A stretch of DNA of 64,000 nucleotides from an uncultured Clostridia bacterium (GTDB lineage Bacteria; Bacillota; Clostridia; UBA1381; UBA9506): assembly GCA_944393605.1 (NCBI GenBank), contig CALYAO010000017.1:1-64000 (forward strand). Direction: 5' to 3'. The position numbers and the translations under genes were made by a program. The notes under the pieces are model-generated. The model made no database searches. It was not told where the DNA came from and saw nothing but the letters and a program-made list of their open reading frames with translations. This document shows, one piece after another, positions 40,413-64,000 of the stretch (within the stretch, counting starts at the first letter, position 1; every line of letters begins with the position of its first letter).

Positions 40413-40586
40413 GTGGTAGATAAGCATCGCGATGCACCGAAAGAAACATACTGTGGTAAGGACGGTACCATACGCACCGTCCGGCATATCGCGCTTGTGT
40501 CCGACGGAGACGCATCGGACAAAGACCAGCAACTACATCAGGCACTGTACCGCATCTCCTTCCCGCCCGCATCCGAAGGGGAGTGA
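40413..40586 (+). CDS. Small protein encoded just before the serine recombinase
   Basis: A 57-residue protein, MVDKHRDAPKETYCGKDGTI and onward, ending FPPASEGE, read from GTG 40413 with GGGAGGGACGGG upstream. The frame is open to a GTG at 40392. The stop is 4 bases before the recombinase start, so the two are translationally linked. The central DGTI-V-H then DKDQQLHQALYRI pattern loosely recalls small TnpW-type proteins that accompany large serine recombinases, but this is a weak resemblance. Possibly an accessory or directionality factor. Confidence 0.6.
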   Translation: MVDKHRDAPKETYCGKDGTIRTVRHIALVSDGDASDKDQQLHQALYRISFPPASEGE

Positions 40587-40590
40587 CACC

Positions 40591-43375: not shown

Positions 43376-43407
43376 TGCCTTACCCCTCCTCAAATCCAGC
43401 TAAATCG

Positions 43408-44415: not shown

Positions 44416-44426
44416 ACCAGTGCCTC

Positions 44427-46445: not shown

Positions 46446-46469
46446 GTCGCTCCTCCTTTGTCGTTTTCC

Positions 46470-46498
46470 ATTATAGCTGTCCACAAAAACCAAGCCAA
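46470..46498 (-). promoter_or_regulatory. Promoter of the six-hairpin/URO-D/GH130 operon
   Basis: On the minus strand TTGGCT (46493-46498), 17 bases, TATAAT (46470-46475), 24 bases before the start codon; the leader is very short (about 18 bases). Confidence 0.7.
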
Positions 46499-46562
46499 TG
46501 GCCAATTTGACTTTTTCCTGTCTCTTGTGTCCCACAGCCCGCCGGCGCACATGCCGCCTATG

Positions 46563-46598
46563 CAAAACAGCGGGCGCCGTTCGTGCTGCGCCCGCTGC
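46563..46598 (-). terminator. Terminator of the giant surface-protein operon
   Basis: CAGCGGGCGC (46568-46577) and GCGCCCGCTG (46588-46597) pair around 10 bases; on the minus strand TTTTGC follows. It sits 40 bases after the 907-residue gene, before the next promoter. Confidence 0.75.
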
Positions 46599-46635
46599 CG
46601 ATTGTCCTGTTTGAAGGGCGCTAGCCCCGTGGTGT

Positions 46636-49359
46636 TTATTTGTAAATAAAGCAGTCCCGAATATCGCTCCACTTACAATGGATCAGCATAAACGATGCGT
46701 CCGACCCATAGGTTTTGAAGTCACGGATATCGTTGACGCTGCCCCATTCCACCTTGTCTCGCTCCCGGTCGTACACACAGATGTTGACCGAGCCCGCCAC
46801 ATAGGTATACAGGTTTGCCTCATCCGTCTCAAACTCCAACGCGGGCAGGGAATCCCGCTTATACGTGGAGGTCACACGAACCCCGCCGCCACCCTGAGAA
46901 TACACCATGGCATACACCAGGCCGACCTCATTTCTCGTCGTATTGGTAAACACAGATAGATCCATGTTGTCGGGGTTTTTCACTCGCCGGATGTCCATAT
47001 CCACCGAAATCCCTGAAATCTCACCCTGTGCGTTGGTCGCGTATCGGATCACGTCCCCCCGTTCCAGCTGGATGTATTGGCCAGGGACAATCTCCCAATT
47101 GTTGTCATACACCGGCTTTTGAACGGTATTGACGCTGTCCACAAACAGGGACTTTAGCGCACCGTCCTCCATGAAATACAACCTCGGCACCTCTTCCCCT
47201 TCGCTGTTGACTGCCATGGTCACGCTGTCCACCATAGAGCAAAGTGCGTCGGTGGATGGAATGTCACTGCCCTCCTCCAGCGTGGTATTGGGCCATACGA
47301 TAATGGAGGCAATTCCGCCGTCGCTGACATCATAAGCCACCAAATTTGCATACCGCTGGTTGTGAATAAAGCTGCTGTTTGTCCGGACTAGGAATTTTTC
47401 ATCGCTGATTTGATCGTTGCCGGGACCGGCCGTCGGCACAAAGAATACCACTGTCTCGGTATTGGCAATGACGCGGCTCCCAAAGATCCCCGCGCCTGAG
47501 CGCCAGCTTTCGCCGTCTGCCGAGGTGGATACGTCCATCTTGCGTAGAGACGTCACAGGATCTTCCGAACTGGTCAGATTGGCAGTATCCACATAATTGA
47601 TCTCATTTTTGGCGTTGGTTTTAAAGCGAACGACCTGCATATTGGTATAGCTGCCGCTGCCCTCCGTGACGGTGAGAAGCGCATACAGATCTTCCGGCGT
47701 CTTCCCTTTGACACCATCCAGCTCCAGTTTGTCCGCAACGTCCATCTCAACCATCGCACCATCGGTTGTCATGAGCTTGAGCTTAATCTCATTGTCTATC
47801 CCACCCATTTGCGCCACCTGCTTGATGTAACCATATTGGGTGGTATCATTGGTGGTACCGAGCTTGCCGGCAATCCTGCCCGCAAAATCCAGCAGGAAAG
47901 TTCCGGTATATCCGACCGCAATTTTTCCCGCTTCCTCCAAAAAGGACGGCGCCACAGTATGCTGTATGCCATCCAGCCACATCTTATCTTCATCCAAGGC
48001 AACGGCATCCATGGTCCCCGTGATTTTTTGAGAGGAGACAATGATCTCCACATATGTCCCATCCTGGCTAGGCATGATGGTCAAAACCTGGTTGGCCATG
48101 AGGGAATTGAGCCGCATTTCCCGGCCTTCTATGTCCCGGATCACCAGGCCGTCTTTATCCTCCATTTCCCCATAGGCAAAGGCAGTATAGGGCGTATACT
48201 TACCGTAGATCACCCGGTCACCCGTATCCAGCACCGAAAGCACGAATGTCTGATATTCCTGCACAAATGCGACGCCATATCCGGTATTGTTGTTGTCAAC
48301 GAGCGTCAGCTTCCCATCCGCCTCCAGCAGACGGGATAGGTCGTAATCAGGATATGCGATACCGTTGAAAATGATGTCCACACTGGTCAGCAGGGTTGCA
48401 AACGTGCTTCTGCCATCCTCCTGGAAATAGGTGATCCGCCCGCTCTGAACGTCGATCAAGTCCTTGCTGTCAATCTCCAGCACATTGGTCCTGGCCTGAG
48501 ATACATAGAGCAGCTGATAGTCCCCTTCCGCATCTTCCTGATAGTAGGCTTTGACGCCATAGCCCAGCAGGGAAGCCGCATCCGTCTCTCCGACGTAGGC
48601 CAAAACGGATGTGCCCCGGCTGTCCGTGATCAGGACCTGACCTCTGGGGGTTTTCGCATCGACCGAAGCCAGGCCGGTAAATGCATTGGCTTGGATAACA
48701 CCACTGATGACATCGCATTCTAAAAACTTGGTCAACACATTCTCCCCAGGGACGATGACAAAATCAGCCTGTTCCCCAATGCCCTTGAGCTGTGCAATGT
48801 CAATCTCCAGCATGTTGTAGAGCATGACGGCCGCCTGCGACTTCGACAGAGTCTGGCCCAGCGTCAGCCCTTTAAGCACCCCTAGGTTGGCCGCCCGGGC
48901 CAGATACCCAGACGGGAAACCGCCCATGTTCTCCGCCTGCTGCCAATACCCCAACAGGCGGATGACAATGCTGACCGCCTCCGCCGGCGTTATAAGCTCA
49001 TCGGGACGGAAGATGCGTCTGCCATAGCCACTGATCAGACCGTGCTGTTCCGCCGTCATCACCGACCGGTAATAGGGGTGATCGGGTTCCACATCCCGGA
49101 ACACATCCGTCTCTGCCGGAATAAAGTCGGGAGCGATGAGCTGGACCAGCATATCCACAAACGCCGCCCGGGTCATTTCCTCATCGGGGCGGAACTCCCC
49201 GCTGTCCGTCAGCGCGCCAAGGGCTGTCAGCACCTCCACGGCCTCCCGGTAATCCGCGTTGGCCGGCACGTCCGAATATGCCGCCACGCCGGCGCCAAGC
49301 GGTAGGCCCACTGTCAGCAGGCATACCGCCAAGGCCAGACATAACCATTTCTTCAGCAA
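46636..49359 (-). CDS. Secreted SLH-domain protein of unknown function, 907 residues
   Basis: N-terminal signal (MLKKWLCLALAVCLLTVGLP, cleavage near GVAA at about 27), then three SLH motifs (about 28-187: YSDVPANADYREAV, DEEMTRAAFVDML, LITPAEAVSIVIRLL). The remaining 700 residues are beta-rich with no family I recognise. They contain several similar short strands (GQVLITDSRGTSVLAY, GKYTPYTAFAYGEMEDKDG, DGTYVEIIVSSQKI). Possibly a scaffold or wall-attached assembly factor. The start is TTG at 49359 after AAAGGAGG, which overlaps the stop of the preceding 2493-residue gene, so the two are tightly coupled. Confidence 0.85.
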   Translation of the reverse strand: MLKKWLCLALAVCLLTVGLPLGAGVAAYSDVPANADYREAVEVLTALGALTDSGEFRPDEEMTRAAFVDMLVQLIAPDFIPAETDVFRDVEPDHPYYRSVMTAEQHGLISGYGRRIFRPDELITPAEAVSIVIRLLGYWQQAENMGGFPSGYLARAANLGVLKGLTLGQTLSKSQAAVMLYNMLEIDIAQLKGIGEQADFVIVPGENVLTKFLECDVISGVIQANAFTGLASVDAKTPRGQVLITDSRGTSVLAYVGETDAASLLGYGVKAYYQEDAEGDYQLLYVSQARTNVLEIDSKDLIDVQSGRITYFQEDGRSTFATLLTSVDIIFNGIAYPDYDLSRLLEADGKLTLVDNNNTGYGVAFVQEYQTFVLSVLDTGDRVIYGKYTPYTAFAYGEMEDKDGLVIRDIEGREMRLNSLMANQVLTIMPSQDGTYVEIIVSSQKITGTMDAVALDEDKMWLDGIQHTVAPSFLEEAGKIAVGYTGTFLLDFAGRIAGKLGTTNDTTQYGYIKQVAQMGGIDNEIKLKLMTTDGAMVEMDVADKLELDGVKGKTPEDLYALLTVTEGSGSYTNMQVVRFKTNAKNEINYVDTANLTSSEDPVTSLRKMDVSTSADGESWRSGAGIFGSRVIANTETVVFFVPTAGPGNDQISDEKFLVRTNSSFIHNQRYANLVAYDVSDGGIASIIVWPNTTLEEGSDIPSTDALCSMVDSVTMAVNSEGEEVPRLYFMEDGALKSLFVDSVNTVQKPVYDNNWEIVPGQYIQLERGDVIRYATNAQGEISGISVDMDIRRVKNPDNMDLSVFTNTTRNEVGLVYAMVYSQGGGGVRVTSTYKRDSLPALEFETDEANLYTYVAGSVNICVYDRERDKVEWGSVNDIRDFKTYGSDASFMLIHCKWSDIRDCFIYK

Positions 49360-49373
49360 ATTACTCGCCTCCT

Positions 49374-52300
49374 TTATTCGGCATAGGTGATGGTGTTGAA
49401 TATGATCTGCGCCGCCTGCGCTCTCGTCGCGCTGTCGAGCGGCTGGAACATATTGTCCCCCACGCCATTGATGATGCCAGATGCCTTCATCGCATTGACT
49501 GCGTTTACGGCATACCCATCAATCTGTGCCTCATCTGCAAAGGGCTCCGCATCAAACTGCATCTGAATCCCCAGCTCGGTAATGGCGCGGTAGAGCATCA
49601 CCGCCATATCCTCACGGGTAATCTCACTGCCAACGCCAAATGTGGTGTCCGACATGCCCTTCACCAGCCCGCTCTGGTATGCCGATGCGATATAGCTATA
49701 ATACCAGGCATCCTCCGGGACATCTACAAACGAGCAGGTGGCATCCGGGTCATAATACCCCAGCGCCAGCACAATCATCTTCACAAACTCTTCCCGCACA
49801 ACCTTCTGATCGGGATTGAATTGGGTGACATTGGACAAAACGCCGCGACGGGTCAAGGTGCCAATTGCCTCCTGCGCCCACGGCACCGTCTCCAGATCGG
49901 TAAATAAGAGCGGCACTTCTGGGGTATCGGGCTCCGTCGGCTGATTCATACCCGGCGTACTAAACCCAAGCCCACTGCCGCCGGTTCCGCCGCCACCGCC
50001 GCCAATCGTACTCGGGCGGTTCGGGCTGCCAGTATTCTGCCCGTTCGCAAGCGAGGACACCACGCTGTTAAACCGGTTTTGTACCGCCGCAACCGAGGCG
50101 TATTGCCGCCCCAGCATTTCTTTGAAAACGTCAGACGGGTCGAGGTTTGCATAGTCACTGCCCGCACTGGTGTTCACATCCACATAGGAGGCATAGGTCT
50201 GGGTCAGGAGGGTTTGCAGCGTCGTCCACGTGTTGGCCGGATTGCTGAATGCCGCACCGATCACCGCATCCACAAACGCCGCCTGCGCCTGCGCCAACGT
50301 GGTCATGGTCTTGGAGACCATGAGGGTGGCCGCGATGGCCCGCGTCCCCGCGTCCATCGCCTGATAATCCGCCAGCAGCCTGGTATCCAGGCCCAGTGCC
50401 CCTGCATACCGCAGGATCCAAGCGTCTTCCTTGTCCGCATCGGACTCGCTGTTGAGCAGCTCGAGGCCCACCGCAATGTCCAGCACATCCTGCACCGACT
50501 GCACATCCGTAAAGGGTGCTGTCCGGTTGGCATTGAAGCTGCTCAGCACGTTCCCCTTATCCACATACGAGAGCAGGTACTCGGTCAGATCCAATCCCAA
50601 ATAGGGGTCTTCCAGCATCTCACGGGTTACGGGATTTGCGTTATCGAGCGCTGCAATGAGGCTCGCGAGATTGTCCTGATGGGTGAAGTAGAAGGTGCCC
50701 GCCTTCTGATACCCCTGTGCATCCACGCCGGCTTCCACCGTATACATCCCCTGCGGCCACGACTCATCCAGCTGGATGTCCGTCGCGGCAAAGGTTCCGT
50801 TTGCCGCGGTCACCAGGTGGTCCACATAGACAATCTCCCCTTCGGACAGAACCGAAATGGGGATGAGCCGGCCGGCCTGTGCCGGGCTGATGGCGCCGCT
50901 TACCTCCAGACGGAGGGTCTGCGTGTTATACACCGCCGCAAGCGACGTCATATCCACGCTGCTGGTGCCCGACGGCATCCATTTCTCGGTACCCGCACTC
51001 GTCAGATCATATACGCCCGAGAGCAGCCGCTGTCCAGCCGCCCCAATCGCATCCCATACAAACACTTTGATGTGCTGGCTTGCCGCGGTTACTGTAAGGG
51101 ATGCCTCAAAGGACAGCGAATCCCCCGCAGAAAGTCCCGGGTGGGACTCGGTCACCACATCCAGCAGTTTTGCACCGTCGTACAGCGCCGCAATGCAAAC
51201 CACGTCTCCCAGGTCCGCATACACATCCCCTGTAAGCGACACATTTGCCGTACCAACCGTAAGCCGGTCGGTTTCGTTCACCGTGAGGGAGGAGACATAG
51301 AGCGCAGGCTGCTGCATGGTGTGGAACGCAAACGTCCGCGTCCCGCTATCCACGCTGATGCCCTCATAGTCTACCAGTGACGGGGACAGGGTCAACGTAT
51401 AATCCGTATCAAACGCCAGCGCACCGTCTAAAACCAGCGTACACGTTCTGGGGTCAAGCGGGTCGCTCAGCACCTCCGCTACCTCGGCGCCGTCTATGGC
51501 AAACGAGCCCGGCACAAAGGAAGCACGATCCATGTTTTTGTCAAAGGTCACCGTAAACTGCGGCTGGATGTCCACATTGTCCGCATTGATAGTCAGCGCA
51601 GGGATGCTCGCCTTGGCTGTCTGCGCCTCATACGTGAAGCGCACAGCCGAAACCGCAACCGCCCATGCATACCCGCTCTTGTATGCCGGGAACTTCACCT
51701 TCAGATATTGAATCTCATTGGGGTCCACAACCGTCTCTCCCGTGGCCGAATCCACCGGGAAGATCAGGTCCGCAATATTGGCCTCATGCAGATAGGTCGC
51801 ATACCCGGCGTTGTTGTACACGATGGTAGGCGCGGCATTGGCCGTAGCATATGTGACATTGTCCTCCGACACCTCAATGGTGAACAGCTGGGTGGAATCC
51901 ACCAAACCCGGCCCGTGAATCACCGACCAGACCTGGAAGCTTTTGAGCGCACCCGCCGGCACCTTGTATGTAATGTAGTTATCCGCAAAGTCGTTCAGCG
52001 GGCCATACCGGTCTGCACCGTGATCCGGATCATATTTCGGATCGGGATTGTTGACGCGCGCCGCGATATCGGGCCTGCCAGACGCATCCTTTGAGACGTC
52101 AAACACCAGGTTTGCGTCATTAATGTCCAAGCACTCATCCAAAACCGTCCCCGCAGGGGCCATAGGGCCTGTCGCAGTCGTCCGGAAGGTCAGCGTCTTG
52201 GGCAAAATCTCTTTGTCGCTCACCGCACACACCGCGTCCCCAATGGTGAGGGTGTATACGGTGTCCCGAGCCAGAGCGCTCCCAAACCGGATCTCACAGG

Positions 52301-55300
52301 CATCCGCCCCAACCGGCGTCACCGATGCGATGACCGCACCGTTGTCCACCGCAAAGTTCGCGGGAATCAGCGTGGCCGTATCCATGTCCTCGCTGAAACG
52401 CAGGAGCAAAATGGGCTCCACCTGCACGTTCGTATTGGGCGACAGCGTCGCAAGCACGGTGCCCGGCGCGGGCTCTTCCCCGCCTTGGCCGTCGCCATAG
52501 CCGATCTCGACATACGAAATCATCGCGCTCCAAGACGCCACATCCGACCACGCCGGGAAGGTGAGCCGCAGATACTGCATGTCAGAGGGGATGCCGCTGG
52601 CAAGGCTCGCCTTGTGCGAAATGGTGGAATACCCGCTGTTCTCATATTCCTGCGCGGTCGCAATGGGCTGCGCATCCGCGTCCGTTGTGCCCTTTGGCGG
52701 CGTCGCAAGCGCCTGCCACGCAGCCCCGTCCGCCGACACTTCAAACTTGAAGCTGTCCACACCGTTGATGACACACCAAACATCAAAGTTTTCGATCATG
52801 CCAGACGGCACCTTGTAGGTCACAGAGTGCTCCGTCCCTGTGCTGGTCGTATTGCCAGCGACCCGAATCTGGCCCAGGCCATGTGTCGGGTCATACCGGC
52901 CGCCCACCTGGTCGGGCTGAACCTGAACCTGAATGGAATCGGTTTTGGCATCCAGATATTGATTATTCAGGTCGATGCACTCGTCCTCAATCACGCCTTC
53001 ACCCGGCACTGGACCGGGGTCCTCTCCGCCGCCCTGTCCGTCGTCGTAGTCAATCTTCACATAGGTCAGCAGCGCACGCCAATTCTCGCCCGCGCCCCAT
53101 CCCGGGAACGTGATTTTCAGGTACTGCATCCCTTCCGGGAGGCCCAGCGCCAGGCTGGATTGATAGGAGATGGGAGACCAGCCGTTCTTGGTCGGCGCTT
53201 CCAGTGTCTTTCGCATGGGCCTTGCCGTAGCATCGTCTACCGCCGGCATGGGCAGCGTCTGCCAGGTCGTCCCATTTTGGGATACCGCCAGCGAGAAATC
53301 GTTGCCGCCCGTCACATTCATGGTCGCCCAGACCTCAAAGCTACCAATGGTCTGCCCCTCCGCCGTCTTATACGTAACATAGTGCGTATTGCCGTCATGC
53401 GCGGCGCTGTCGCTGACCACCAGACGGTCAAAGTCGTGCCGGGGGTCATAGTTGGCGTTCTCGCCCGTGCCCACCACAATTTTACCCGACTGGTCGTCAA
53501 TCTTACCCAGTGTATCACACTCATCCTCGATGCCCGTTGCGGGCTCTGGATCGGGCACATCTCCGCCGCCTTCGCCGTCACCATAGCCGATTTTCACGTA
53601 GGCGAGCTGCGCTTCCCAGCTGTTGGTTCCATTCCAAGCCGGGAAGGTGACCTTTAGGTATCGCATCCCGGCGGGGATACCGCTTGCATTGCTGGCTTTA
53701 AAGGAAATGGTCGAATAGCCGCTGTTCTCATATTCCTGCTCGGTCGCAATGGGCTGCGCATCCACATCCGTTGTGCCCTTTGGCGGCGTCGCAAGAGCCT
53801 GCCAGCTTGTCTTGTCCGCCGACACCTCAAATTTGAAGTTGTCCGTGTTGAGCTGCACGCCCCATACCTCAAAGTTTTGGATGACGGTATTTTCGGGAAC
53901 CTCATAGATCACATAGTGCTCCGTCCCCGTGCTGGTGACACTGCCATTGACACGCAGCCGCCACAGGCCATGCACCGGGTCATACCGCGTGTTGCCGTCC
54001 TGGTGCGCCATGATGAGGCTTGAATACTCCGCCGCCTTCGTCAGATCCTCTCCCTCATCCTCTATAACGCCCTCCTCCGGCTCCACCGGGCCAGGATCTT
54101 CGCCGCCTTCGCCGGCACCGTATCCAATTTCTACATACGAAATCTGTGCACGGAAGGAATCCGTCCCCGACCATGCCGGGAAGGTGAGCCGCAGATACTG
54201 CATGTCGGAAGGGAGGCCACTGGCAAGGCTCGCCTTGTGGGAAATGGTGGAATACCCGCTGTTTTCGTATTCCTGCTTGGTTGCAATGGGCTGGAATGCA
54301 TCATCCACCGTGCCTCGCGGCGGCGTCGCCAGTGCCTGCCACGTATTGCCGTTCGCCGACACTTCAAACTTAAAGTTGTCCACGCCGTTAATCACGCACC
54401 AAACATCAAAGTTTTCAATCATGCCCGACGGTACCTTGTAGGTCACCGAATGCTCCGTCCCTGTGCTCGTCGTGTTGCCCGCAACCCGAATCTGACCCAG
54501 GCCATGTGTCGGGTCATACCGGCCGCCCACCTGGTCGGGCTGATTCTGCTCCTGAATCTTTTCCGTTTTATCCACCAGCGCCGAATTCAAAAGGTCGGTG
54601 CACTCATCCTTGATCACACCTTCGCCCGGCTCCACCGGGCCGGGATCTTCGCCACCTTCTCCAGCGCCATAGCCGATCTTCACATACGCAATCTGGGCCC
54701 GGTAGGACTCGTTGCCATTCCAGCCCGGGAAGGTAATTTTCAGATACTGTGCACCCTTTGGGATACCCGCCGCAATGCTTGATTTGTACGACATGGTGGA
54801 ATATCCCTGGCTTTCATACTCCTGCTTGGTCGCAATGGGCGTCCCCTCTTCGTCTACTTCCGTGGGCGTCGGCATGGGCGTCCAAGTTGTGCCATCGGAC
54901 GACGTCGCAATCTGGAAGAAACTCTTTGCGTTGTTTTGCACGCCCCAAATCTCAAAATTCTCAATCATACCCAACGGCACCTGATACGTGATCCAGTGCT
55001 CGCTGCCCGTACTTGTGCTCTCTGGGCTGCCGTCCACACGGATGCGGTCCGCACCATGCACCGAGTCGAATTTGCCATCGTTGCCCGACTGCACTGTGAT
55101 TCTGTCAGACGACTTGTTGTGGAGTTTGGTCAGATCAACGCCCTCGTCCTCCATCACGCCTTCACCCGGCTCCACCGGGCCGGGATCTTCGCCGCCTTCG
55201 CCTTCACCATAGCCGATTTCCACATAGGAAAGCTGCGCATCCCAGTTGTTGCCGCCGCTCCATGCCGGGAAGGTGAGCTTTAAGTACTGCATCCCAGAGG

Positions 55301-56855
55301 GAATGCCGCTCGCAAGGCTTGCTTTGTGCGAGATGGTGGAATAGTCGCCCGCATACTCCACCGAAGTCGCGATGGGCTTAAACTGATCGTCCGTCGTATT
55401 CCTAGGCGGCGTCGCCAGCGTCTGCCACGACGATTTGTCCTTGGATACCTCGAACTGAAAGTTGTCCACGCCATGGATAACGCACCAGACATCAAAATAT
55501 TCAATCATGCCGGACGGCACCTTGTAGATAACATAGTGCTCGGTGCCCGTGCTGGTCATGTTTGCCTCTACCACACGCAGTCGCCACAGGCCATGCACCG
55601 GGTCATACCGCGTATTGCTGTCCTGATGCGGCACCACATACTGCGAGACCTCGTCTGCGATGCTCGTCGTTTCACCCTCGTCTTTTAAAACATTGCCAGT
55701 CGGCTCGGGGGCTTCTTCACCGCTTTCGCCATAGCCGATTTTCACATAGGAAAGCACGACCCGCCAACGGCCACCCTCTTCCCATGCCGGAAAGCTGATT
55801 TTCAGGTACTTCATCCCCGTCGGCAGCCCCTGCGATACGCTGGATTTATAAGACAGGGTGGACCAGCCGCCGCTGTTGGATGACTCCAGCGTTTTGGCAA
55901 CCGGCTGTGCCGCAGGGTCCAGACCTGCCGGCAAGGCCAGCTTCTGCCAATTCTGCTGATCGGCCGACACCTCCAGCGTAAAGTCACTGGAAGTCATCAT
56001 GGTGGCCCACATCTCAAAGTTGCCAATGGTTTGGCCATCCTCTGCCGCATAGATCACATAGTGATTGGTTCCGTCGCTTGTGCCCTGGTCGTCCACCGTG
56101 AAGCACTCGTTGTCATGCTTGTCGTTGTACTGGGAGCCAATTGCCGAACCAACGATAATGGCACCTGACTGGCTATCAATTTTATTGAGTGTATCACATT
56201 CGTCCTCATACCCGCCTGTCGGGTCCACCACCGGCGGTTCGGGATCCGTTCCGCCTTCTTCGCCTTCCCCGTCACCATAGCCAATCTTCACATAGGAAAT
56301 CTGCGCACCGATGGAATTGTCAAACGCCGGGAAGGTGATCTTTAAGTACTGCATCCCCGCCGGGATACCGGATGACAAGCTGGCCTTATACGAAATGGTA
56401 GAATATCCGCCGCTTTCATCGCCCTTGGCAGGACCATACTCCACATCCGTCGCGATGGGTTTTGCCGTCGGATCCACATCTGTCCCAGGCGTCGCAAGCG
56501 ACTGCCAGCTTGTCCCATCTGCCGACACTTCAAATTTGAAATTGCCCGTGTTGAGATGGACACACCATACCTCAAAGCTCACAATGGCAGCTTCGGGCAC
56601 CTTATATGTCACATAGTGATCGGTGCCGTCGCTCGTAATCCCTCCGGGCAAACGCAGGCGCTCAGCGCCATGCACATCATCATATTTATAGTCGCCGCCC
56701 GGATGAGACATGATCCCTGTCGAGTAGTCATGAAGCAGCTTCAGATCCTTTCCCTCGTCCTCCAGGTAAGATACCGTATCCGCCGCAAACGTGACTGCCG
56801 GGAACAGGCCAACCACCATGGCAAGCGCCACAAACAGGGCCAGTATTTTTTTCAT
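49374..56855 (-). CDS. Giant surface protein: 9 repeated beta-sandwich domains, Ig-like domains, C-terminal SLH
   Basis: A 2493-residue secreted protein. Signal MKKILALFVALAMVVGLFPA, cleaved near FAA at 23-25. Eight tandem units of about 180 residues (to about residue 1465) share DEG/DEC at the start, HYVTYKVP, FEVW, FKFEVSADGTSWQ, YSTISYKASLASGIPSGMQ and SYVKIGYGDGEG. They look like carbohydrate-binding galactose-binding-like folds. An SbsA-type Ig domain (FSEDMDTATLIPANF), a divergent ninth unit and a second Ig domain (FDKNMDRASFVPGSF) follow. Then come a region of about 500 residues without recognised family, a Gly-rich linker, and three SLH motifs (about 2317-2493). The ATG at 56855 is preferred over 56861 because AGGAGG is 8 bases away. 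It starts 12 bases after the GH30 gene. Confidence 0.9.
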   Translation of the reverse strand: MKKILALFVALAMVVGLFPAVTFAADTVSYLEDEGKDLKLLHDYSTGIMSHPGGDYKYDDVHGAERLRLPGGITSDGTDHYVTYKVPEAAIVSFEVWCVHLNTGNFKFEVSADGTSWQSLATPGTDVDPTAKPIATDVEYGPAKGDESGGYSTISYKASLSSGIPAGMQYLKITFPAFDNSIGAQISYVKIGYGDGEGEEGGTDPEPPVVDPTGGYEDECDTLNKIDSQSGAIIVGSAIGSQYNDKHDNECFTVDDQGTSDGTNHYVIYAAEDGQTIGNFEMWATMMTSSDFTLEVSADQQNWQKLALPAGLDPAAQPVAKTLESSNSGGWSTLSYKSSVSQGLPTGMKYLKISFPAWEEGGRWRVVLSYVKIGYGESGEEAPEPTGNVLKDEGETTSIADEVSQYVVPHQDSNTRYDPVHGLWRLRVVEANMTSTGTEHYVIYKVPSGMIEYFDVWCVIHGVDNFQFEVSKDKSSWQTLATPPRNTTDDQFKPIATSVEYAGDYSTISHKASLASGIPSGMQYLKLTFPAWSGGNNWDAQLSYVEIGYGEGEGGEDPGPVEPGEGVMEDEGVDLTKLHNKSSDRITVQSGNDGKFDSVHGADRIRVDGSPESTSTGSEHWITYQVPLGMIENFEIWGVQNNAKSFFQIATSSDGTTWTPMPTPTEVDEEGTPIATKQEYESQGYSTMSYKSSIAAGIPKGAQYLKITFPGWNGNESYRAQIAYVKIGYGAGEGGEDPGPVEPGEGVIKDECTDLLNSALVDKTEKIQEQNQPDQVGGRYDPTHGLGQIRVAGNTTSTGTEHSVTYKVPSGMIENFDVWCVINGVDNFKFEVSANGNTWQALATPPRGTVDDAFQPIATKQEYENSGYSTISHKASLASGLPSDMQYLRLTFPAWSGTDSFRAQISYVEIGYGAGEGGEDPGPVEPEEGVIEDEGEDLTKAAEYSSLIMAHQDGNTRYDPVHGLWRLRVNGSVTSTGTEHYVIYEVPENTVIQNFEVWGVQLNTDNFKFEVSADKTSWQALATPPKGTTDVDAQPIATEQEYENSGYSTISFKASNASGIPAGMRYLKVTFPAWNGTNSWEAQLAYVKIGYGDGEGGGDVPDPEPATGIEDECDTLGKIDDQSGKIVVGTGENANYDPRHDFDRLVVSDSAAHDGNTHYVTYKTAEGQTIGSFEVWATMNVTGGNDFSLAVSQNGTTWQTLPMPAVDDATARPMRKTLEAPTKNGWSPISYQSSLALGLPEGMQYLKITFPGWGAGENWRALLTYVKIDYDDGQGGGEDPGPVPGEGVIEDECIDLNNQYLDAKTDSIQVQVQPDQVGGRYDPTHGLGQIRVAGNTTSTGTEHSVTYKVPSGMIENFDVWCVINGVDSFKFEVSADGAAWQALATPPKGTTDADAQPIATAQEYENSGYSTISHKASLASGIPSDMQYLRLTFPAWSDVASWSAMISYVEIGYGDGQGGEEPAPGTVLATLSPNTNVQVEPILLLRFSEDMDTATLIPANFAVDNGAVIASVTPVGADACEIRFGSALARDTVYTLTIGDAVCAVSDKEILPKTLTFRTTATGPMAPAGTVLDECLDINDANLVFDVSKDASGRPDIAARVNNPDPKYDPDHGADRYGPLNDFADNYITYKVPAGALKSFQVWSVIHGPGLVDSTQLFTIEVSEDNVTYATANAAPTIVYNNAGYATYLHEANIADLIFPVDSATGETVVDPNEIQYLKVKFPAYKSGYAWAVAVSAVRFTYEAQTAKASIPALTINADNVDIQPQFTVTFDKNMDRASFVPGSFAIDGAEVAEVLSDPLDPRTCTLVLDGALAFDTDYTLTLSPSLVDYEGISVDSGTRTFAFHTMQQPALYVSSLTVNETDRLTVGTANVSLTGDVYADLGDVVCIAALYDGAKLLDVVTESHPGLSAGDSLSFEASLTVTAASQHIKVFVWDAIGAAGQRLLSGVYDLTSAGTEKWMPSGTSSVDMTSLAAVYNTQTLRLEVSGAISPAQAGRLIPISVLSEGEIVYVDHLVTAANGTFAATDIQLDESWPQGMYTVEAGVDAQGYQKAGTFYFTHQDNLASLIAALDNANPVTREMLEDPYLGLDLTEYLLSYVDKGNVLSSFNANRTAPFTDVQSVQDVLDIAVGLELLNSESDADKEDAWILRYAGALGLDTRLLADYQAMDAGTRAIAATLMVSKTMTTLAQAQAAFVDAVIGAAFSNPANTWTTLQTLLTQTYASYVDVNTSAGSDYANLDPSDVFKEMLGRQYASVAAVQNRFNSVVSSLANGQNTGSPNRPSTIGGGGGGTGGSGLGFSTPGMNQPTEPDTPEVPLLFTDLETVPWAQEAIGTLTRRGVLSNVTQFNPDQKVVREEFVKMIVLALGYYDPDATCSFVDVPEDAWYYSYIASAYQSGLVKGMSDTTFGVGSEITREDMAVMLYRAITELGIQMQFDAEPFADEAQIDGYAVNAVNAMKASGIINGVGDNMFQPLDSATRAQAAQIIFNTITYAE
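52460..56770 (-). repeat. Eight tandem in-gene repeats of about 540 bp
   Basis: The segment encoding (K/E)IGYG recurs on the plus strand near 56281, 55735, 55213, 54668, 54121, 53585, 53040 and 52499, a period of 522-547 bases. DNA identity is high between particular pairs: 54420-54545 and 52800-52925 differ at few positions. A ninth, diverged unit lies at about 51620-52150 behind an Ig-like domain. Such an array can change copy number by recombination. Confidence 0.9.
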
Positions 56856-56867
56856 CGCCATACCCTC

Positions 56868-59800
56868 CTATTGGATTTTTACGCTGTTGCTTTCCGGATC
56901 CCACTCCACCGGATGCTGCATCGCCTCGCTGATAAAACGCAGCGGGACCAGGATGCGCCCGTCTGTCAATATGGGCGCCGCATCCAATTGGACGCTCTGT
57001 GTGTTGACATACGCCGTGCTGTCCCCTGCGGATAACACAATGCTGGTATATTTATCCAGCAGCGTCGCGCGGCCGCTTGCCTCATCCCAGCGGACTTCCA
57101 AGTCCAGCGCCTCCGCCGTCGCACGGATGGGAACCATCACCCGCTCATTCACCATCACCGGCGCCACATCATACGTAACAGGCACGCCGCCTACATACAC
57201 TTTGATCTCCTGCTCCGGCTCTGTTGGCTCATCGGGATCTTCCACATTGCCACCCGGCGTGAAAACGATCTCGCGGTCCACATATGGTACATCGGGCTCC
57301 GTCGAAAGAATCAGGGTCCCAAAGCCAGACGTATCCTGCCAGTTGTTGCTCGTACCATTCCATGCCAGAACGGTTTCTCGCGTGATCCCGCCTTCGTTGT
57401 CATCACATGTCAGGTCAAACCCAATCTCAACGCCATCTCCCGGCTGCACGCCTATCACATTCCACGGGATGGCCATCTCGACCGTATAGCCATCTTCTAC
57501 GTCCTGCCAGCCGGTCTTAACGCCGCTCACGTTGTTGTCATGCAGACCCGTCCGGCCCATGGGATAGCCAACAAACAGCTGCCGGTCCCCCTCCTGGTAT
57601 GTCCCGCGTTTTTGGTTGCTGGGGTTCAGGAATACCTCCACGCAGTCGTTGTTATAAGGTTGCGAATGGGTAAAGGCCAATATGTGATCCACCACCTTGG
57701 CGCCGATGTAGAGGTTTTCGTTGTCCCACAGGGTGCCGAAATTGACAATGTTGTTGGCGCCTGATCCCGAGATCAAAAGCGACGCCTTGTTGTCCATCCG
57801 CCAGTCCGCCTCGGACAGTCTGCCGTCAATGGAGACGGGATTGCCCGTGAAGCGGGTATAGGAGACACCATCCGTAAAGTGCGGGGACTGGTCTGTTTTG
57901 GTATAGGTCACAACAAATGGGGTCTGTCCCACGTTGTCATACAGGTCCGTTGCCGTCACCACGACATTGTTCTCGCCCTCTTGTAGGACCACCTTTTCTA
58001 CAAAGGTGTTGCCTTCCCGCATCACGGCCTCCTGCCCGTTTACCATCACATACTTGACATCTTCATTCACTTGCCCGTGTAACACAAATTCCGCATCCTC
58101 TGTGGTGTTGGGGTCTGTGAAAGTAACCTCGGGCGCCAGAGAATCACAGAACACCTGGAGCGTCATAGGATCGGATTTGTTGCCCTCCGTATCTTCGGCG
58201 GACAGTGTGATGGTGTTATCCCCCTGCTCCAGCGCCACCGTCGTCTCAAAGGACAGGTCCTCACTGACTGCCACCTGTTCTCCATTCACGGTCAGCGTCC
58301 CCGCGGTGTTGAGCTTTCCCGTCAAAGGATACGCCGCACTGGATACCACGGTCTGCGGATCCTCTAGGTCAATGCCGACATAGTCGGGGTCATAAGTAAA
58401 AGAATAGGTCGCGGCTGGCGCGCTGTTTTTGTTCTCATCCGTCGCCTGCACCTGCACCCTGGTGGTCGCAGACGAAAGCGTCAACGGAACCGACACAGAG
58501 AGGTCCGTATCGGTGGTATAGGACTGGCCGTTAATCACAATGGTCGCCGGCTCGTCCGATGTAACCGTAAACGTGATCTCGCGGCTGCGGCTGACATACA
58601 CATCTCCCTTTTGGCTCAGCTGCCGCTCAGGCACAAACTGCACGTCGGGATAGGAGACGTCGGTCTGGCTGGAGGACACCATGACAATACTTCTGGCCGG
58701 CACTGCAATATTTTTCACCGTCCCGCCGGCGATGTTCTGCCGAGCCGTTTCGCCAAATCCACTTGCCTGGATGGTATACACCGTCGCCGAGCTGCCCTTC
58801 ATGCCATTGAAATTGTATACCTTATCGTCCTTGGATGTGTTAACCAAAACGGCCAGCGTGCCGTTCGCGTGCTCATAGGCCACCATGTCCGTCATGAGGC
58901 CGCCATCGTTTTTCACGCCTGGGTCATCCGTTTCCATCCGGCGGATGTAGGAGCCTACCGGCGCGTTGTTGTAGATGGTTTCAAGCGCATAATACTGGAG
59001 GCCCTTGTTGACGATAGAAACCCCTTCACCGTCAATCAGGCACTGCTGCCCCACGTCCGAGATGTTGCAGCGCGGGGACCAGCCAATCCACCAGAACCAA
59101 TAGTTGATCCCGGTAAATCCCATATCTGCATTCATAATCCGCTGAATATCAATGACGCGATCAATCTCCAGAGGCTCCTCGATGGTTGCGTTACATACCT
59201 CGGTCTGCCAACGGTCCTTTTCAGGGAATTTGTCATACAATGCGGCAACCCGTCTGGGGCCGTCGTCCTGCGAATCCCGTTTGTTCATATAAGAGTGGCT
59301 GGCAAAGGCATCCAGCGCGTCCTGCAAGTCCTTGTCCCTTTCCAAATCTGAAAAATTTTCTCCCAGCCACATCTCCGTGTTGATGTAAGAACCGCCCTCA
59401 GGCCCAATCAACGTCACATCCTGGTAACCCGCCTCATCCATGGTCTTGCGCATGAGCTTGGTCAGGCGGATGAACTGCTCGCCTGTCAGATACAGGCTCT
59501 GGTAATCCATCGCGTTTTCGGGCTCATTTTGGACACTCAGCGCCGTCGGACGCGGCAGATGCTGTTCTTTTACCAAATAGTCCAGCACGTCCACGACATA
59601 ATCGCAGTAGGGCTGCTCGTTCTCCTCCGGCAGCTTGGCCACCGTTCCGTCAGGATGCCGCCCCAGCTGGCTCTGATTGTCCTTAAAGACCGCAGGTGGT
59701 GAAAACAAGGTGAGCAGATACTGCTCCACGCCATTGTCCAGCCCCAGGCGGATGTTGCCCGCCAGCCGGTCTAAGTGCTCCAACACAAGATTGCCGTCTA

Positions 59801-60059
59801 GATCCATACACTGAAAAGACAGCTCAATGCGCTGAATGGTGGTACCCAGCTCCTTATACAGTACATTCTGTGCCTCATATTTGTTCCGAAATATAGCCGC
59901 CTCGCTGATATAGGCCGGCGTCAGACCCCACCCTTTTACCTGCTGGTAGTTGGTTGGAAGGACGGTGGCCTCATACACCGTCTCCGTCGCCGCCATCACA
60001 GGCATCACAGGCAGAAGCAGCGCCGTCAATATCACCAATGCTATCCACGCTCTTTTCAC
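56868..60059 (-). CDS. Secreted GH30-type glycosidase with Ig-like domains, CBM9 and a stalk domain
   Basis: A 1063-residue extracellular enzyme. Signal 1-23 (VMA then ATETV). The GH30 core (about 30-465) has the acid/base in SVQNEPENA (E179) and a likely nucleophile in RWQTEVCN (E287). The layout is typical of GH30 glucuronoxylanase/glucanase-like members; the substrate is not fixed. Ig-like domains follow at about 490-560, 570-640 and 645-720. A CBM9-like domain (about 735-920: VSIDGRLSEADW, LYIGAKVVDH, VEMAIPWNVIGV) binds glycan ends. A copper-amine-oxidase-N-type domain (about 952-1063: VMVPIRATAEALDLEV, ILVPLRFISEAM) probably anchors to the wall. Start GTG 60059 after GAGGAGG. First gene of the giant operon. 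Confidence 0.9.
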   Translation of the reverse strand: MKRAWIALVILTALLLPVMPVMAATETVYEATVLPTNYQQVKGWGLTPAYISEAAIFRNKYEAQNVLYKELGTTIQRIELSFQCMDLDGNLVLEHLDRLAGNIRLGLDNGVEQYLLTLFSPPAVFKDNQSQLGRHPDGTVAKLPEENEQPYCDYVVDVLDYLVKEQHLPRPTALSVQNEPENAMDYQSLYLTGEQFIRLTKLMRKTMDEAGYQDVTLIGPEGGSYINTEMWLGENFSDLERDKDLQDALDAFASHSYMNKRDSQDDGPRRVAALYDKFPEKDRWQTEVCNATIEEPLEIDRVIDIQRIMNADMGFTGINYWFWWIGWSPRCNISDVGQQCLIDGEGVSIVNKGLQYYALETIYNNAPVGSYIRRMETDDPGVKNDGGLMTDMVAYEHANGTLAVLVNTSKDDKVYNFNGMKGSSATVYTIQASGFGETARQNIAGGTVKNIAVPARSIVMVSSSQTDVSYPDVQFVPERQLSQKGDVYVSRSREITFTVTSDEPATIVINGQSYTTDTDLSVSVPLTLSSATTRVQVQATDENKNSAPAATYSFTYDPDYVGIDLEDPQTVVSSAAYPLTGKLNTAGTLTVNGEQVAVSEDLSFETTVALEQGDNTITLSAEDTEGNKSDPMTLQVFCDSLAPEVTFTDPNTTEDAEFVLHGQVNEDVKYVMVNGQEAVMREGNTFVEKVVLQEGENNVVVTATDLYDNVGQTPFVVTYTKTDQSPHFTDGVSYTRFTGNPVSIDGRLSEADWRMDNKASLLISGSGANNIVNFGTLWDNENLYIGAKVVDHILAFTHSQPYNNDCVEVFLNPSNQKRGTYQEGDRQLFVGYPMGRTGLHDNNVSGVKTGWQDVEDGYTVEMAIPWNVIGVQPGDGVEIGFDLTCDDNEGGITRETVLAWNGTSNNWQDTSGFGTLILSTEPDVPYVDREIVFTPGGNVEDPDEPTEPEQEIKVYVGGVPVTYDVAPVMVNERVMVPIRATAEALDLEVRWDEASGRATLLDKYTSIVLSAGDSTAYVNTQSVQLDAAPILTDGRILVPLRFISEAMQHPVEWDPESNSVKIQ

Positions 60060-60120: not shown

Positions 60121-60129
60121 ATCGTCTAT
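60121..60129. promoter_or_regulatory. Third copy of the 9-bp word ATCGTCTAT, upstream of the GH30 operon
   Basis: The word is identical to the core of both arms of the inverted repeat at 62850-62929. Here it lies 62 bases upstream of the GH30 start codon. A plausible promoter on the minus strand (TTAAAA, 17 bases, TAAAAT) lies just upstream of it but is weak. The 231-base gap otherwise contains the terminator at 60237-60263. Confidence 0.45.
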
Positions 60130-60236
60130 CTTTATTTTACAGGAAATCAAGCCCGTTTTTAATAGATAATATTGCGCTTTCGTATAACATTTTGCCCAAA
60201 CCCGCATCCGTCCGCCAGCTGATGCCACAGATGAGA

Positions 60237-60290: not shown

Positions 60291-62777
60291 CTATTTGATT
60301 TCCGCCGGCACCAAATACGGCACCTGCGATGCTAAACTATCCCACAGAAAACTCCTAACGGTACAACCAGCAAACCCAGTGAGATCCATTTCCGGGCCTG
60401 TGATGGACAGCGCAGTGCCTTCCGCCTGCACCGCCGCCGAACATTTGACAGCCGCCAACACATCGTTCTGGTAAACTGCGGTTATCAAGATGTAGGAATT
60501 GCCCGGCACCGCATCCACGATGTCTGCGGTTGCGGTGACCTGCGTCGCACCCGCCAGGGATGTGATCTCCGCGCCCGACTGGTCACGGTAGACGATGGCG
60601 GTCTCTTCGGGCTCGGGTTCAATGAACTCCGGCTCATCCGCCCGGGTCACAAACCGCACGTTGTCCAGATAGAACGTGATGGGCACGTCCGTGGTGTTCT
60701 TACCCGTGAAGCCAACGCCCGCAACAGAGTCGTAGTTGTAAGTGCCAGCTGCGGTCACCGTCCCCTGCTCTTTCATCTCGGTCAGCGGAATCACGATCTG
60801 CTGCCACTGCCCGATCTTTGTACTATCCACATACTCCGCCAGCGGCAGGGATAACGTATCGGGCGCTTCCTCCGCTCCGCTCATAATATACACCGCAAAG
60901 TCCTCCGGCATGTTGCTCGCCAGATACACCCAGAATTGCAGGAAAGCCGGACTTTGTCCCTGATGCTCACCCGTCGTATAGGCGTCAAACATCTTTCTTT
61001 GATTCGCAACCGGTCCTGATTTTACGCCGAAATCGCAATCCTCTGCATTTGCATCAAAGGTCACCTTGGTGGAATACGTTCCACTGGCAGGCGTGATCTC
61101 GGTGGATTTTTCTACCACGCTCCGCGATTCGCTGCCGCTTTGATACAGCGGCGACGTAATGCCCTCCGTGATGAAGTCCCGAAGGAGATTGTTGTCGGGC
61201 GAAACATAAACCGTAATGATCTCCGACTCGGCCAAAATGTCCGCCGAGGCATTCTGTGCACGCAATCTCAGCCGGTAATACCCGGGATACCCGGCATAAT
61301 AGCTGATCGGATAGCCTGCCGCAGCATTGGAGGAATAGGTATTTGTCCTTTGTATGAGCCCCGGCGCCGTAGGCACGTCATTATCCACATACACACGGGA
61401 GATCTGGTTATCACCGTTCTTGGCGGGCTGATTTGCCTCCACGTAGAACTGGAAGAAGGAGCCCGTCTGCACGGTGTACATATCAGGCATCGCCATGCCA
61501 TACAATGCGCCATCCGCCGGGAATTTTGCAGCAATGGTAACGCCCGACACCGTAAACGCACGGGTCACAGCCTCGCTCGCCAGGCCTTCATCGTCATATG
61601 CGATCACCTTCACAGTATGCGCCGCATCCGCATCCGATGCAGTCGGTGTCCACGTTGCCTCAAACGGCGCCTGTGTGGCCGTCGCAAAGGGAGAGTCTGC
61701 ATCATCTAAATAGAACTCCACGCGGTCCGCCGTGCCGTCATCTGTCACATCCGCGCTAAATACGAACTCTTTCTGCTGCTGAATAAACTGGCCCTCTCTA
61801 GCCGGCGAGGTGATGGTTGCAGTAGGCGCTGTATTCTCCCCCGTTACTCGCACCTGTCGGGAAATCGCCTCGGAAGTCGCTTCCGCATTCTTTGCCTGAA
61901 CCGCATATACATAAGAGCTTGCGGCATCTCCGGGCAGCGTATCGGTATAAGTCGTCGCGGTCACAGTATCCAGCAGGGTGCCGTCACGATACACATCATA
62001 CCCCGTCACGGTTCCTTCTGTCGGCGCCGTCCAGGTCAGCGTTACGTTGGAGGCTGTTTTTTCGGAGACCGCAAGTGCCGAAGGTGCGGCAAGGTAGGGT
62101 TCAAATACGGCATCCGCCAGCCGCATGAGTTGGAAGGATTCCAGCGGCTCCTCATTGATGCACGCAATATACAGGCCGCTCACATTGTTCCAATTAAATT
62201 CGGTCGCCTCTGCCATACTGGTAGAAAAGGTCCCACGCTCTTTGAAGTACGAAAGTGGGATGGTGACCTTCTGCCAGGTATATACCGCTGTGTTTGGCGC
62301 AAAAATTTCCATGTCCGCCACATCTTCCATAGGGACGGTCAGCCTGCCCAATTCATCGGCTCTGCCGCTCGTCCCCAAATCACAGGTGATCCCTATTTCA
62401 AAATCCTCGGGATTGGCCATGATAACCGTCCAGAAACTCAGCGCCGCCGTATTCGCCCAGTCCCGTTCCGTATCCAGCGCCTTGCCGTGCAGAATAAATT
62501 CCGCTTTGTCATTGTCATCAAAGATATAGTTGACCTTGATGCGCCCATCCTTTTGCACATCTACCGCCGGCCGATTATTTTCTGCAATATCTGCCACCGA
62601 AAAGGTTGCAATATTCACCTGCGTCCTGGTGAAGCCGGGATAGGTTCCGTCTTTGCCGAACAGCGTCGCAAGCACCGTTCCGCCCGCGGGCGCGACCTCA
62701 GCAGAAACCGCGGGGAGCAGCCCCACCAGCAGAAACGCAGCCACACACAACCCCAAAAGCCTCATACCTTTTTTCAT
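60291..62777 (-). CDS. Secreted multidomain protein with Fn3 and Ig-like domains, no catalytic domain recognised
   Basis: An 828-residue exported protein. Signal MKKGMRLLGLCVAAFLLVGL, cleavage near VSA at 25. Residues about 30-235 form a beta-sandwich resembling a CIA30/galactose-binding domain (AALSFWTVIMANPEDFEIGI, YTWQKVTIPLSYFKE). An Fn3 domain (about 240-325: SNVTLTWTAPTEGTVTGYDV), a bacterial Ig domain (about 327-425: VEFYLDDADSPFATATQAPF), a middle beta region and a second sandwich (about 560-730: FLQFWVYLASNMPEDFAVYI) follow. The two sandwiches look like internal duplicates. There is no SLH or sortase anchor. ATG 62777 follows AAAGGAGGAG. It is divergent from the GH5-like gene and shares its control region. 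Probably a glycan-binding accessory protein. Confidence 0.82.
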   Translation of the reverse strand: MKKGMRLLGLCVAAFLLVGLLPAVSAEVAPAGGTVLATLFGKDGTYPGFTRTQVNIATFSVADIAENNRPAVDVQKDGRIKVNYIFDDNDKAEFILHGKALDTERDWANTAALSFWTVIMANPEDFEIGITCDLGTSGRADELGRLTVPMEDVADMEIFAPNTAVYTWQKVTIPLSYFKERGTFSTSMAEATEFNWNNVSGLYIACINEEPLESFQLMRLADAVFEPYLAAPSALAVSEKTASNVTLTWTAPTEGTVTGYDVYRDGTLLDTVTATTYTDTLPGDAASSYVYAVQAKNAEATSEAISRQVRVTGENTAPTATITSPAREGQFIQQQKEFVFSADVTDDGTADRVEFYLDDADSPFATATQAPFEATWTPTASDADAAHTVKVIAYDDEGLASEAVTRAFTVSGVTIAAKFPADGALYGMAMPDMYTVQTGSFFQFYVEANQPAKNGDNQISRVYVDNDVPTAPGLIQRTNTYSSNAAAGYPISYYAGYPGYYRLRLRAQNASADILAESEIITVYVSPDNNLLRDFITEGITSPLYQSGSESRSVVEKSTEITPASGTYSTKVTFDANAEDCDFGVKSGPVANQRKMFDAYTTGEHQGQSPAFLQFWVYLASNMPEDFAVYIMSGAEEAPDTLSLPLAEYVDSTKIGQWQQIVIPLTEMKEQGTVTAAGTYNYDSVAGVGFTGKNTTDVPITFYLDNVRFVTRADEPEFIEPEPEETAIVYRDQSGAEITSLAGATQVTATADIVDAVPGNSYILITAVYQNDVLAAVKCSAAVQAEGTALSITGPEMDLTGFAGCTVRSFLWDSLASQVPYLVPAEIK

Positions 62778-62837
62778 GATCCGCTCCTCCTTTGTGATGG
62801 ATATTTCCGAGCTATCTGGTTTTATCATACCAATGTG

Positions 62838-62954
62838 TGCCCCATAAATACAATAGACGATCTTGCGGTATTGTGTATATTCTTGCCGTGGTACAAAAAT
62901 ATACAATGAAGGGCAAAATCGTCTATTGTTTTCGGTTTGGTCAGCCTCTAAAAT
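62838..62954. promoter_or_regulatory. Symmetric divergent control region with a 12-bp inverted repeat
   Basis: ACAATAGACGAT (62850-62861) and its exact reverse complement (62918-62929) are 56 bases apart. Each arm runs directly into an outward promoter -35. Rightward: TTGTTT (62926-62931), 17 bases, TAAAAT (62949-62954). Leftward: TTGTAT at the mirrored position, 18 bases, then TATGAT near 62821-62829 with an extended TG. Between the arms lies a partial inner inverted repeat (ATTGTGTATATT / AATATACAAT). The layout suggests one activator serving both genes. Confidence 0.7.
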
Positions 62955-62993: not shown

Positions 62994-64000
62994 ATGAGAA
63001 AGCGCATACACTGTCTGCTGCTTGCCGCGCTAGTTGGGGCAATGACGCTGTTGCTCTGTCTGCCCGCCTCCGCGACAGACGATACAGACCCTATCCGCCC
63101 GCTGCACATCGAAGGCAACGACTTTGTGGACGACGCGGGCAATGTGGTCAAATTCTGGGGCTTTAACCTGGTCGCCCTCTATCCAACCGCCACGCAGGCC
63201 GAGGCCATTGCGGAGCAGCTGGCTGCGTTGGGCGTCAACGTCGTCCGCCCGCACCACAACATGCGCAACAGCAAGGACTGGAACTGGGGGGACATCCCCG
63301 GCGCGCTGGTGGACTACGTAAACGACTCGCGGACGCCTGACCCCGTCGCATGGGAAAACTTTGACTATTTAAACTACCAGCTGCGGAAAAAGGGCATCTA
63401 CACCCGCCCCAGCCTGGATGCCAGCCGCCGGTATCTGCCGGGGGATGTGGCGATTTTAGAGACCACAGAAGAGGATGCGGCAGCATGGTCTAACGCCATG
63501 GCAGCCTTGGAGCGGCTCGCATGGAACGAATCCATGGACCTGCGGCGCATCCTGCCCATGATTGACGAGCGGTGTGCGCTGCTCAATGAGGAATATATCA
63601 AAAATTTCCTGACCCACACAAACGAACACACCGGCCTCACCTACGGCGAAGACCCTCAGACCCTGACATTGGAGATCATGAACGAGACCTCCACACCGTA
63701 TGCCATCTATGCGGGCAACCGGTTTGAAAACTACATTGAGCGCGAGCCGGACCTACAGTACTGGTACGACCTATTTGTGGACCGGTTTGAGGCCTATTGC
63801 AGCGAACACGGCATGGAGCCGTTTGACTTCCTGACCACGCACACCAACGACCTCACCCTCGAACAGCAGGAATTCCGGGACAATTTCCTGGTGGAGCTAG
63901 ACAACAACTACTACGAGCGCATCCAGGCGTTTGTCAAAAATGACCTGCAATGCGATATTCCCATCACGTTCAGCAACCTGTTCCGCGGGGAGCATGTCAT
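62994..64000 (+). CDS. GH5-like secreted glycoside hydrolase (3' end outside window)
   Basis: At least 335 residues, cut by the right edge. Signal MRKRIHCLLLAALVGAMTLL with cleavage near SA at 27. The mature part opens IRPLHIEGNDFVDDAGN, then VVKFWGFNLVALYP, LGVNVVRPHHNM (about 80-91) and LTLEIMNETSTPY, where N230-E231 would be the acid/base pair of a clan A (GH5-like) barrel. The nucleophile Glu would lie beyond the edge. ATG 62994 has AAAGGA about 10 bases upstream. Driven from the divergent control region. The substrate class (cellulose, mannan, other) cannot be read from what is present. Confidence 0.85.
   Translation, partial: MRKRIHCLLLAALVGAMTLLLCLPASATDDTDPIRPLHIEGNDFVDDAGNVVKFWGFNLVALYPTATQAEAIAEQLAALGVNVVRPHHNMRNSKDWNWGDIPGALVDYVNDSRTPDPVAWENFDYLNYQLRKKGIYTRPSLDASRRYLPGDVAILETTEEDAAAWSNAMAALERLAWNESMDLRRILPMIDERCALLNEEYIKNFLTHTNEHTGLTYGEDPQTLTLEIMNETSTPYAIYAGNRFENYIEREPDLQYWYDLFVDRFEAYCSEHGMEPFDFLTTHTNDLTLEQQEFRDNFLVELDNNYYERIQAFVKNDLQCDIPITFSNLFRGEHV

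Follow-up and report, generated by a model that had tools for sequence, protein, structure and literature searches.

A 38-bp direct-repeat site before four promoters of a glycan gene cluster in an uncultured Clostridia bacterium: a candidate target of a shared YesN-type activator

Gene organization of the glycan cluster

We analyzed a window of 64,000 nucleotides, i.e., positions 1–64,000 of contig CALYAO010000017.1 from the assembly GCA_944393605.1 of an uncultured Clostridia bacterium. Positions beyond the window are given in contig coordinates with the prefix C17. At the window end two genes for secreted proteins diverge. The first one, hereafter the Fn3/Ig gene (60291–62777, minus strand), encodes a protein of 828 aa with Big_7 and SGBP_B_XBD-like domains. 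It is likely transcribed as a single gene, and a GC-rich hairpin is located between it and the next of the sites described below (60157–60194).

The second one, hereafter the 62994 gene (62994–64000, continuing to C17:66512, plus strand), encodes a secreted protein of 1172 aa with an Fn3 domain and is followed by a gene of the URO-D family. The earlier note had labeled it GH5-like. A Pfam domain search revealed no GH5 match in this protein, and what is left in favor of the label is a single match to an endo-beta-mannanase, of marginal significance (E = 0.014). From its sequence, the protein may possibly be an enzyme of clan GH-A; the structure predicted for its N-terminal 335 aa, with a mean pLDDT of 44, was of too low quality to be of help.

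Next to the Fn3/Ig gene, on the same strand, lies a likely operon that begins with a GH30-like gene (56868–60059, minus strand) containing CBM9, Glucodextran_B and Cu-amine-oxidase-N domains. The later genes (42206–56861, minus strand) encode two SLH proteins of 2495 and 907 aa, an MGH1-like glycoside hydrolase, a URO-D family protein and a GH130 protein, and the intergenic gaps within the operon are short (about 7–71 nt). The SLH-anchored protein of 2495 aa (49374–56861) contains many repeated F5/8-type-C-like units and probably binds glycans at the cell surface.

Past the window end, the minus strand carries genes for a sugar-binding protein (SBP_bac_1), a kinase and a response regulator, then a gap, and then an ABC operon composed of two permease genes and genes for a DUF3502 binding protein, a GH28-like protein and a GH38 protein. 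It should be mentioned that two URO-D family (corrinoid methyltransferase-like) genes stand inside glycan operons beside glycan-related genes, at 43408–44415 and C17:66539–67567 (L012:2539–3567). Their products possibly take part in O-methyl-sugar demethylation.

The 38-bp site and its four copies

In the earlier note the space between the divergent genes was described as mirror-symmetric, with a perfect 12-bp inverted repeat and a second, imperfect one inside it. Both repeats were confirmed. The left arm of the perfect repeat is located at 62850–62861 (ACAATAGACGAT on the plus strand) and the right arm at 62918–62929 (ATCGTCTATTGT on the plus strand). Extended without gaps, they grow to arms of 39 nt (62847–62885 and 62894–62932) that are 77% complementary and separated by 8 nt. 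At this arm length the pair is the best on the 88-kb contig: 30 of its 39 positions are paired, as compared with 27 in the next unrelated pair and at most 28 in five Markov controls.

Both repeats are parts of one 38-bp site that is present twice and points outward. The copy belonging to the Fn3/Ig gene occupies 62848–62885 on the minus strand (CAAGAATATACACAATACCGCAAGATCGTCTATTGTAT), its distal half-site beginning at 62885 and its proximal one at 62865, while the copy belonging to the 62994 gene occupies 62894–62931 on the plus strand (CAAAAATATACAATGAAGGGCAAAATCGTCTATTGTTT), with the distal half-site beginning at 62894 and the proximal one at 62914. The left and right 12-bp arms fall into the proximal half-sites of the Fn3/Ig site and the 62994 site, respectively, and the inner imperfect repeat is formed by the promoter-distal half-sites of both.

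When the own genome was searched with the divergent region, a third site was found as a single arm on the same contig, before the sugar ABC-transporter operon outside the window (C17:75734–75771, minus strand; CAAGAATATACACAAAAGAGCAAGATCATCTATTCAAT). A matrix built from three sites revealed a fourth, previously unseen copy upstream of the GH30-like operon (60157–60194, minus strand; CAAAATGTTATACGAAAGCGCAATATTATCTATTAAAA), with a score of 25.6 versus 14.0 for the best of six shuffles. This copy is the most diverged of the four.

The search for the repeat and its arms proposed in the earlier note thus ended with four copies, all of them in the glycan cluster and two without a mirror partner. 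All four lie within 16 kb, each stands before genes of the cluster, both transporter and enzyme genes being among them, and each is oriented toward its own -10 hexamer. A sequence model of the four sites detected no further copy in the 2.5-Mb genome, the next match having E = 0.12. The model matches its own four sites by construction, and the independent test was a leave-one-out analysis. Each held-out site ranked fourth, directly behind the three sites used for training, with scores of 25.6–47.4 versus maxima of 12.4–17.4 in 1 Mb of Markov sequence. For the two sites of the divergent region the held-out scores were 45.1 (Fn3/Ig site) and 35.3 (62994 site), the respective Markov maxima being 14.8 and 17.4.

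Comparison of the site with itself gave a column agreement of 0.51 at offset 20 versus 0.19–0.39 at all other offsets tried; therefore each site is built of two directly repeated half-sites, which are 20 bp apart and can be written as CAARA-N15-CAARA-TC-TCTATT. The earlier note had assumed one symmetric operator serving both promoters. Such an operator would be required as a whole symmetric unit and its arms would not occur singly elsewhere; instead, the region contains two separate direct-repeat sites back to back, and single complete arms stand unmirrored before the promoters of the GH30-like and ABC operons. The left (Fn3/Ig) site resembles the ABC-operon site at 32 of 38 positions and its mirror partner at 29 of 38, which argues against the palindrome as the functional unit.

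The core of an inverted half-site (ATCGTCTAT on the plus strand) was also observed at 60121–60129, just downstream of the -10 hexamer of the GH30-like promoter. This 9-mer occurs exactly four times on the 88-kb contig, both strands considered, and the copy at 60121–60129 could be a vestigial site, a second contact of the regulator or a chance match.

Outward promoters at a fixed distance from the sites

The outward promoters proposed in the earlier note were found as described, each with an arm abutting or overlapping its -35 hexamer. The predicted promoter of the Fn3/Ig gene (62824–62853, minus strand) consists of TTGTAT (62853–62848) and TATGAT (62829–62824) separated by 18 nt, and that of the 62994 gene (62926–62954, plus strand) of TTGTTT (62926–62931) and TAAAAT (62949–62954) separated by 17 nt. 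Short leaders are predicted, of about 40 and about 33 nt for the Fn3/Ig and 62994 genes, respectively. Promoters were likewise predicted for the GH30-like operon (60134–60162, minus strand; TTAAAA-17-TAAAAT) and for the ABC operon (-35 TTCAAT, -10 TATAAT).

Counted from the start of the site, the -10 hexamers of the Fn3/Ig gene, the 62994 gene, the GH30-like operon and the ABC operon begin at offsets 56, 55, 55 and 55, and they match the consensus at five to six of six positions. They lie outside the matrix used for the search; comparably good -10 hexamers occur at about 0.2% of contig positions and at about 1% of positions in these intergenic stretches. The -35 hexamers are poor (three to four matches of six) and start inside the site at all four promoters.

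Class II activation, in which the activator sits over the -35 region, is an established layout for AraC-type activators. The features of this layout in the AraC family, namely direct half-sites about 20–21 bp apart (20 here), a proximal half-site over the -35 hexamer and a fixed distance to the -10 hexamer, were all found at the sites studied. By analogy, we infer that class II activation may apply at these four promoters.

A candidate regulator and its possible mode of action

The earlier note had seen no regulator gene adjacent to the divergent region and placed the regulator elsewhere, which is probably wrong. The same cluster, at a distance of about 13 kb and shortly beyond the window end, encodes a kinase together with a YesN-like AraC-type response regulator (C17:75836–77434, minus strand). 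Its Response_reg, HTH_AraC and HTH_18 domains score above the Pfam cut-offs, and it matches solved AraC-type response regulators. The YesM-like kinase beside it contains His_kinase (PF06580, 2.3e-27), HATPase_c and HAMP domains. The ABC site lies in the intergenic gap that immediately follows the regulator gene, and no other regulators were seen among the annotated genes over about 42–81 kb of the contig. As judged from its location and the form of the sites, this response regulator most likely uses the four sites.

We consider it probable that the divergent region contains two back-to-back sites of an AraC-type activator, and that the local YesN-like regulator, together with an oligosaccharide-sensing kinase, would activate at least four promoters in the class II manner. 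The extracellular binding protein and the YesM-like kinase would sense an oligosaccharide outside the cell, and the activated kinase would phosphorylate the response regulator. The 20-bp spacing of the half-sites would let two regulator subunits bind as a pair to the same face of the helix. At each site such a pair would be bound, its promoter-proximal subunit touching the -35 hexamer and recruiting RNA polymerase to a promoter with a weak -35 and a good -10. The Fn3/Ig gene, the 62994 operon, the GH30-like operon and the operon of the ABC transporter, GH28 and GH38 would then be switched on jointly. The earlier proposal that one activator is shared by the Fn3/Ig and 62994 genes is supported by the sequence, which has the layout of an activator site next to or over the -35 of each outward promoter; the two genes should respond together. 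With respect to the inducer, the GH130, GH38 and MGH1-like genes and the weak mannanase match permit a guess at a mannose-containing plant or host glycan.

Of the other explanations, one accepts the four activator sites as genuine and assigns them to a different protein of the AraC or YesN type, with its gene at another place in the genome. A search with the regulator gave 26 matches in the genome (REC or AraC HTH parts, with partial matches and the regulator itself counted), so that a paralogue could be the real binder. The roughly 25 further matches include full-length YesN-like paralogues with 28–30% identity. This assignment appears unlikely to us, because the four sites lie within 16 kb and nowhere else in the genome, and the cluster's own AraC-type regulator stands beside one of them. 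For comparable systems local regulation is the norm (PMC8579813; PMC3656788), which also speaks for the local regulator.

The overlap of the site with the -35 hexamer would suit a repressor as well, one that blocks RNA polymerase until the inducer frees it from the DNA. This is quite improbable: the -35 hexamers are as poor as in activator-dependent promoters, most of the site is located upstream of the -35, and the direct-repeat form and position fit AraC-type activators (PMC8579813). Activation is the direction of control that we favor at all four promoters.

A promoter scan also reported an inward-directed pair inside the repeat, TAGACG-16-TATATT at 62854–62881 (plus strand) and 62925–62898 (minus strand), that is, two promoters where 0.7 were expected. 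If these were the true promoters, transcription would start centrally and each leader would carry one arm. They are present twice only because the sequence is inverted-repeated, and this pair was rejected, as it is not kept at the ABC and GH30-like sites. On the matching strand, transcription from the ABC site would lead in the direction opposite to the ABC genes, and the GH30-like site lacks TATATT, whereas the outward -10 hexamers are kept at four of four promoters; we regard the inward pair as very improbable.

A mobile or repetitive element, or a palindrome formed by chance, is scarcely credible as the source of the inverted repeat: perfect 12-bp inverted repeats with loops of up to 60 nt are indeed not rare on the contig (16 start/loop combinations, with runs of neighboring positions at several loci), but there are only four copies of the site, each before a glycan operon and two of them unmirrored, with no clear shared flanks beyond the site and promoter, and the leave-one-out test contradicts this explanation.

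The preferred reading, a shared activator acting on outward promoters, turns an apparent palindrome into a defined candidate regulon: one regulator, four operons and one 38-bp site with clear half-site and promoter geometry. It predicts that the genes of these operons act together on one extracellular glycan and provides a testable rule for locating the poorly defined DNA targets of YesN-type regulators.

Comparison with known systems and related genomes

In the YesM/YesN and AraPST systems of Bacillales, a kinase acts with an AraC-type response regulator, and AraPST adds a sugar-binding accessory sensor. The kinase, the AraC-type response regulator and the sugar-binding protein of the cluster resemble them in general terms. 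This type of regulon is already known, and the four-site cluster is a fresh example of it, in which the idea of a shared activator is well supported at the sequence level.

A closer counterpart is CuaDSR of Ruminiclostridium (Clostridium) cellulolyticum, for which a putative 19-nt CuaR motif was described before cuaA, cuaB and cdpA (PMC3656788). The following components of a CuaDSR-like regulon were found here: an AraC-type response regulator, an adjacent kinase with His_kinase and HAMP domains, a binding-protein gene in the regulator operon, a neighboring ABC transporter and a common site before transporter and enzyme genes. CuaDSR likewise combines a binding protein, a sensor kinase and an AraC-type response regulator in an operon by a sugar ABC transporter, and one motif precedes several targets. 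It differs in motif length, gene content and probably substrate, and no divergent back-to-back pair is described for it in the text examined (PMC3656788).

The XydS/XydR system of R. cellulolyticum is similar in regulator length (532 versus 533 aa) and domain plan. The regions bound by XydR share CAAAA(N14–15)CAAAA upstream of the -10, near the promoter, which resembles CAARA(N15)CAARA of the sites studied here. In gel shifts XydR was shown to bind long fragments, the exact site being unmapped, and its targets are cellulosomal hemicellulases (PMC3572039). For the AraC-type two-component regulators of Caldicellulosiruptor bescii, which were read as activators, the sites are tandem repeats that precede mapped promoters. 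Systems such as AviRS resemble the cluster in this respect and in their locally encoded two-component pair, which controls an oligosaccharide ABC transporter together with a secreted enzyme (PMC8579813).

A related module was found in seven genomes of one other genus (L070–L076), presumably Caldicellulosiruptor. It comprises a binding protein, a kinase and a regulator with 32–34% identity beside an ABC operon. Just upstream of the ABC promoter and first permease gene, the seven genomes share a block of about 65 bp with hardly any variation, which is probably the site of their own response regulator. In contrast to the cluster analyzed here, the module has no match to the 38-bp site in this block, the 20-bp repeat of which is weak (best offset 21, agreement 0.41). 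The module supports the general arrangement only.

No orthologues were found of the Fn3/Ig protein (150 relatives) or of the 62994 protein (391 genomes of the class); a search of 95 genomes of the order revealed no closely orthologous regulator, and a scan of genome contigs with the regulator confirmed none. The orthologous cluster was not found in any of the four sets, so that, as lineage context, nothing of it was detected in the 95–391 related genomes searched. The exact site pattern gave six matches in the genome contigs, all within ORFs of unrelated bacteria, and these were taken as chance.

The site model yielded 16 weak matches beyond the own genome in the 150 relatives (E up to 0.01), several in genes and a few upstream of genes. 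Of these, we cite one as an illustration, in L085, which belongs to the same order (positions 1501–1590, minus strand): GCAAGATTGT is repeated there at a distance of 21 bp, and the second CAA is followed by TATAAT at 35 nt. This match is located upstream of a probable sugar gene and has the same geometry as the 38-bp site with different flanks. In addition, GCAARAT-N13/14-GCAARAT was found about 130 times in the 95 genomes versus 26 times in a backward control, but many of the matches are probably coding or low-complexity repeats, and we place no weight on this excess.

Given the likeness of the CAARA-N15-CAARA geometry to the repeat of the XydR-bound regions and to the L085 match, it may be tentatively suggested, as a possibility that we find rather doubtful, that this arrangement, in which the second CAA precedes the -10 by 35 nt, is a common code of YesN-type glycan regulators across Clostridia. 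If so, the sites of the many orphan YesN regulators could be found by geometry and not by sequence, including those of XuaDSR, for which the authors report that no conserved site was found (PMC12175519).

Finally, a serine-recombinase-like ORF (40432–42129) borders the glycan cluster, which was not found in relatives, and is a possible mark of its horizontal gain.
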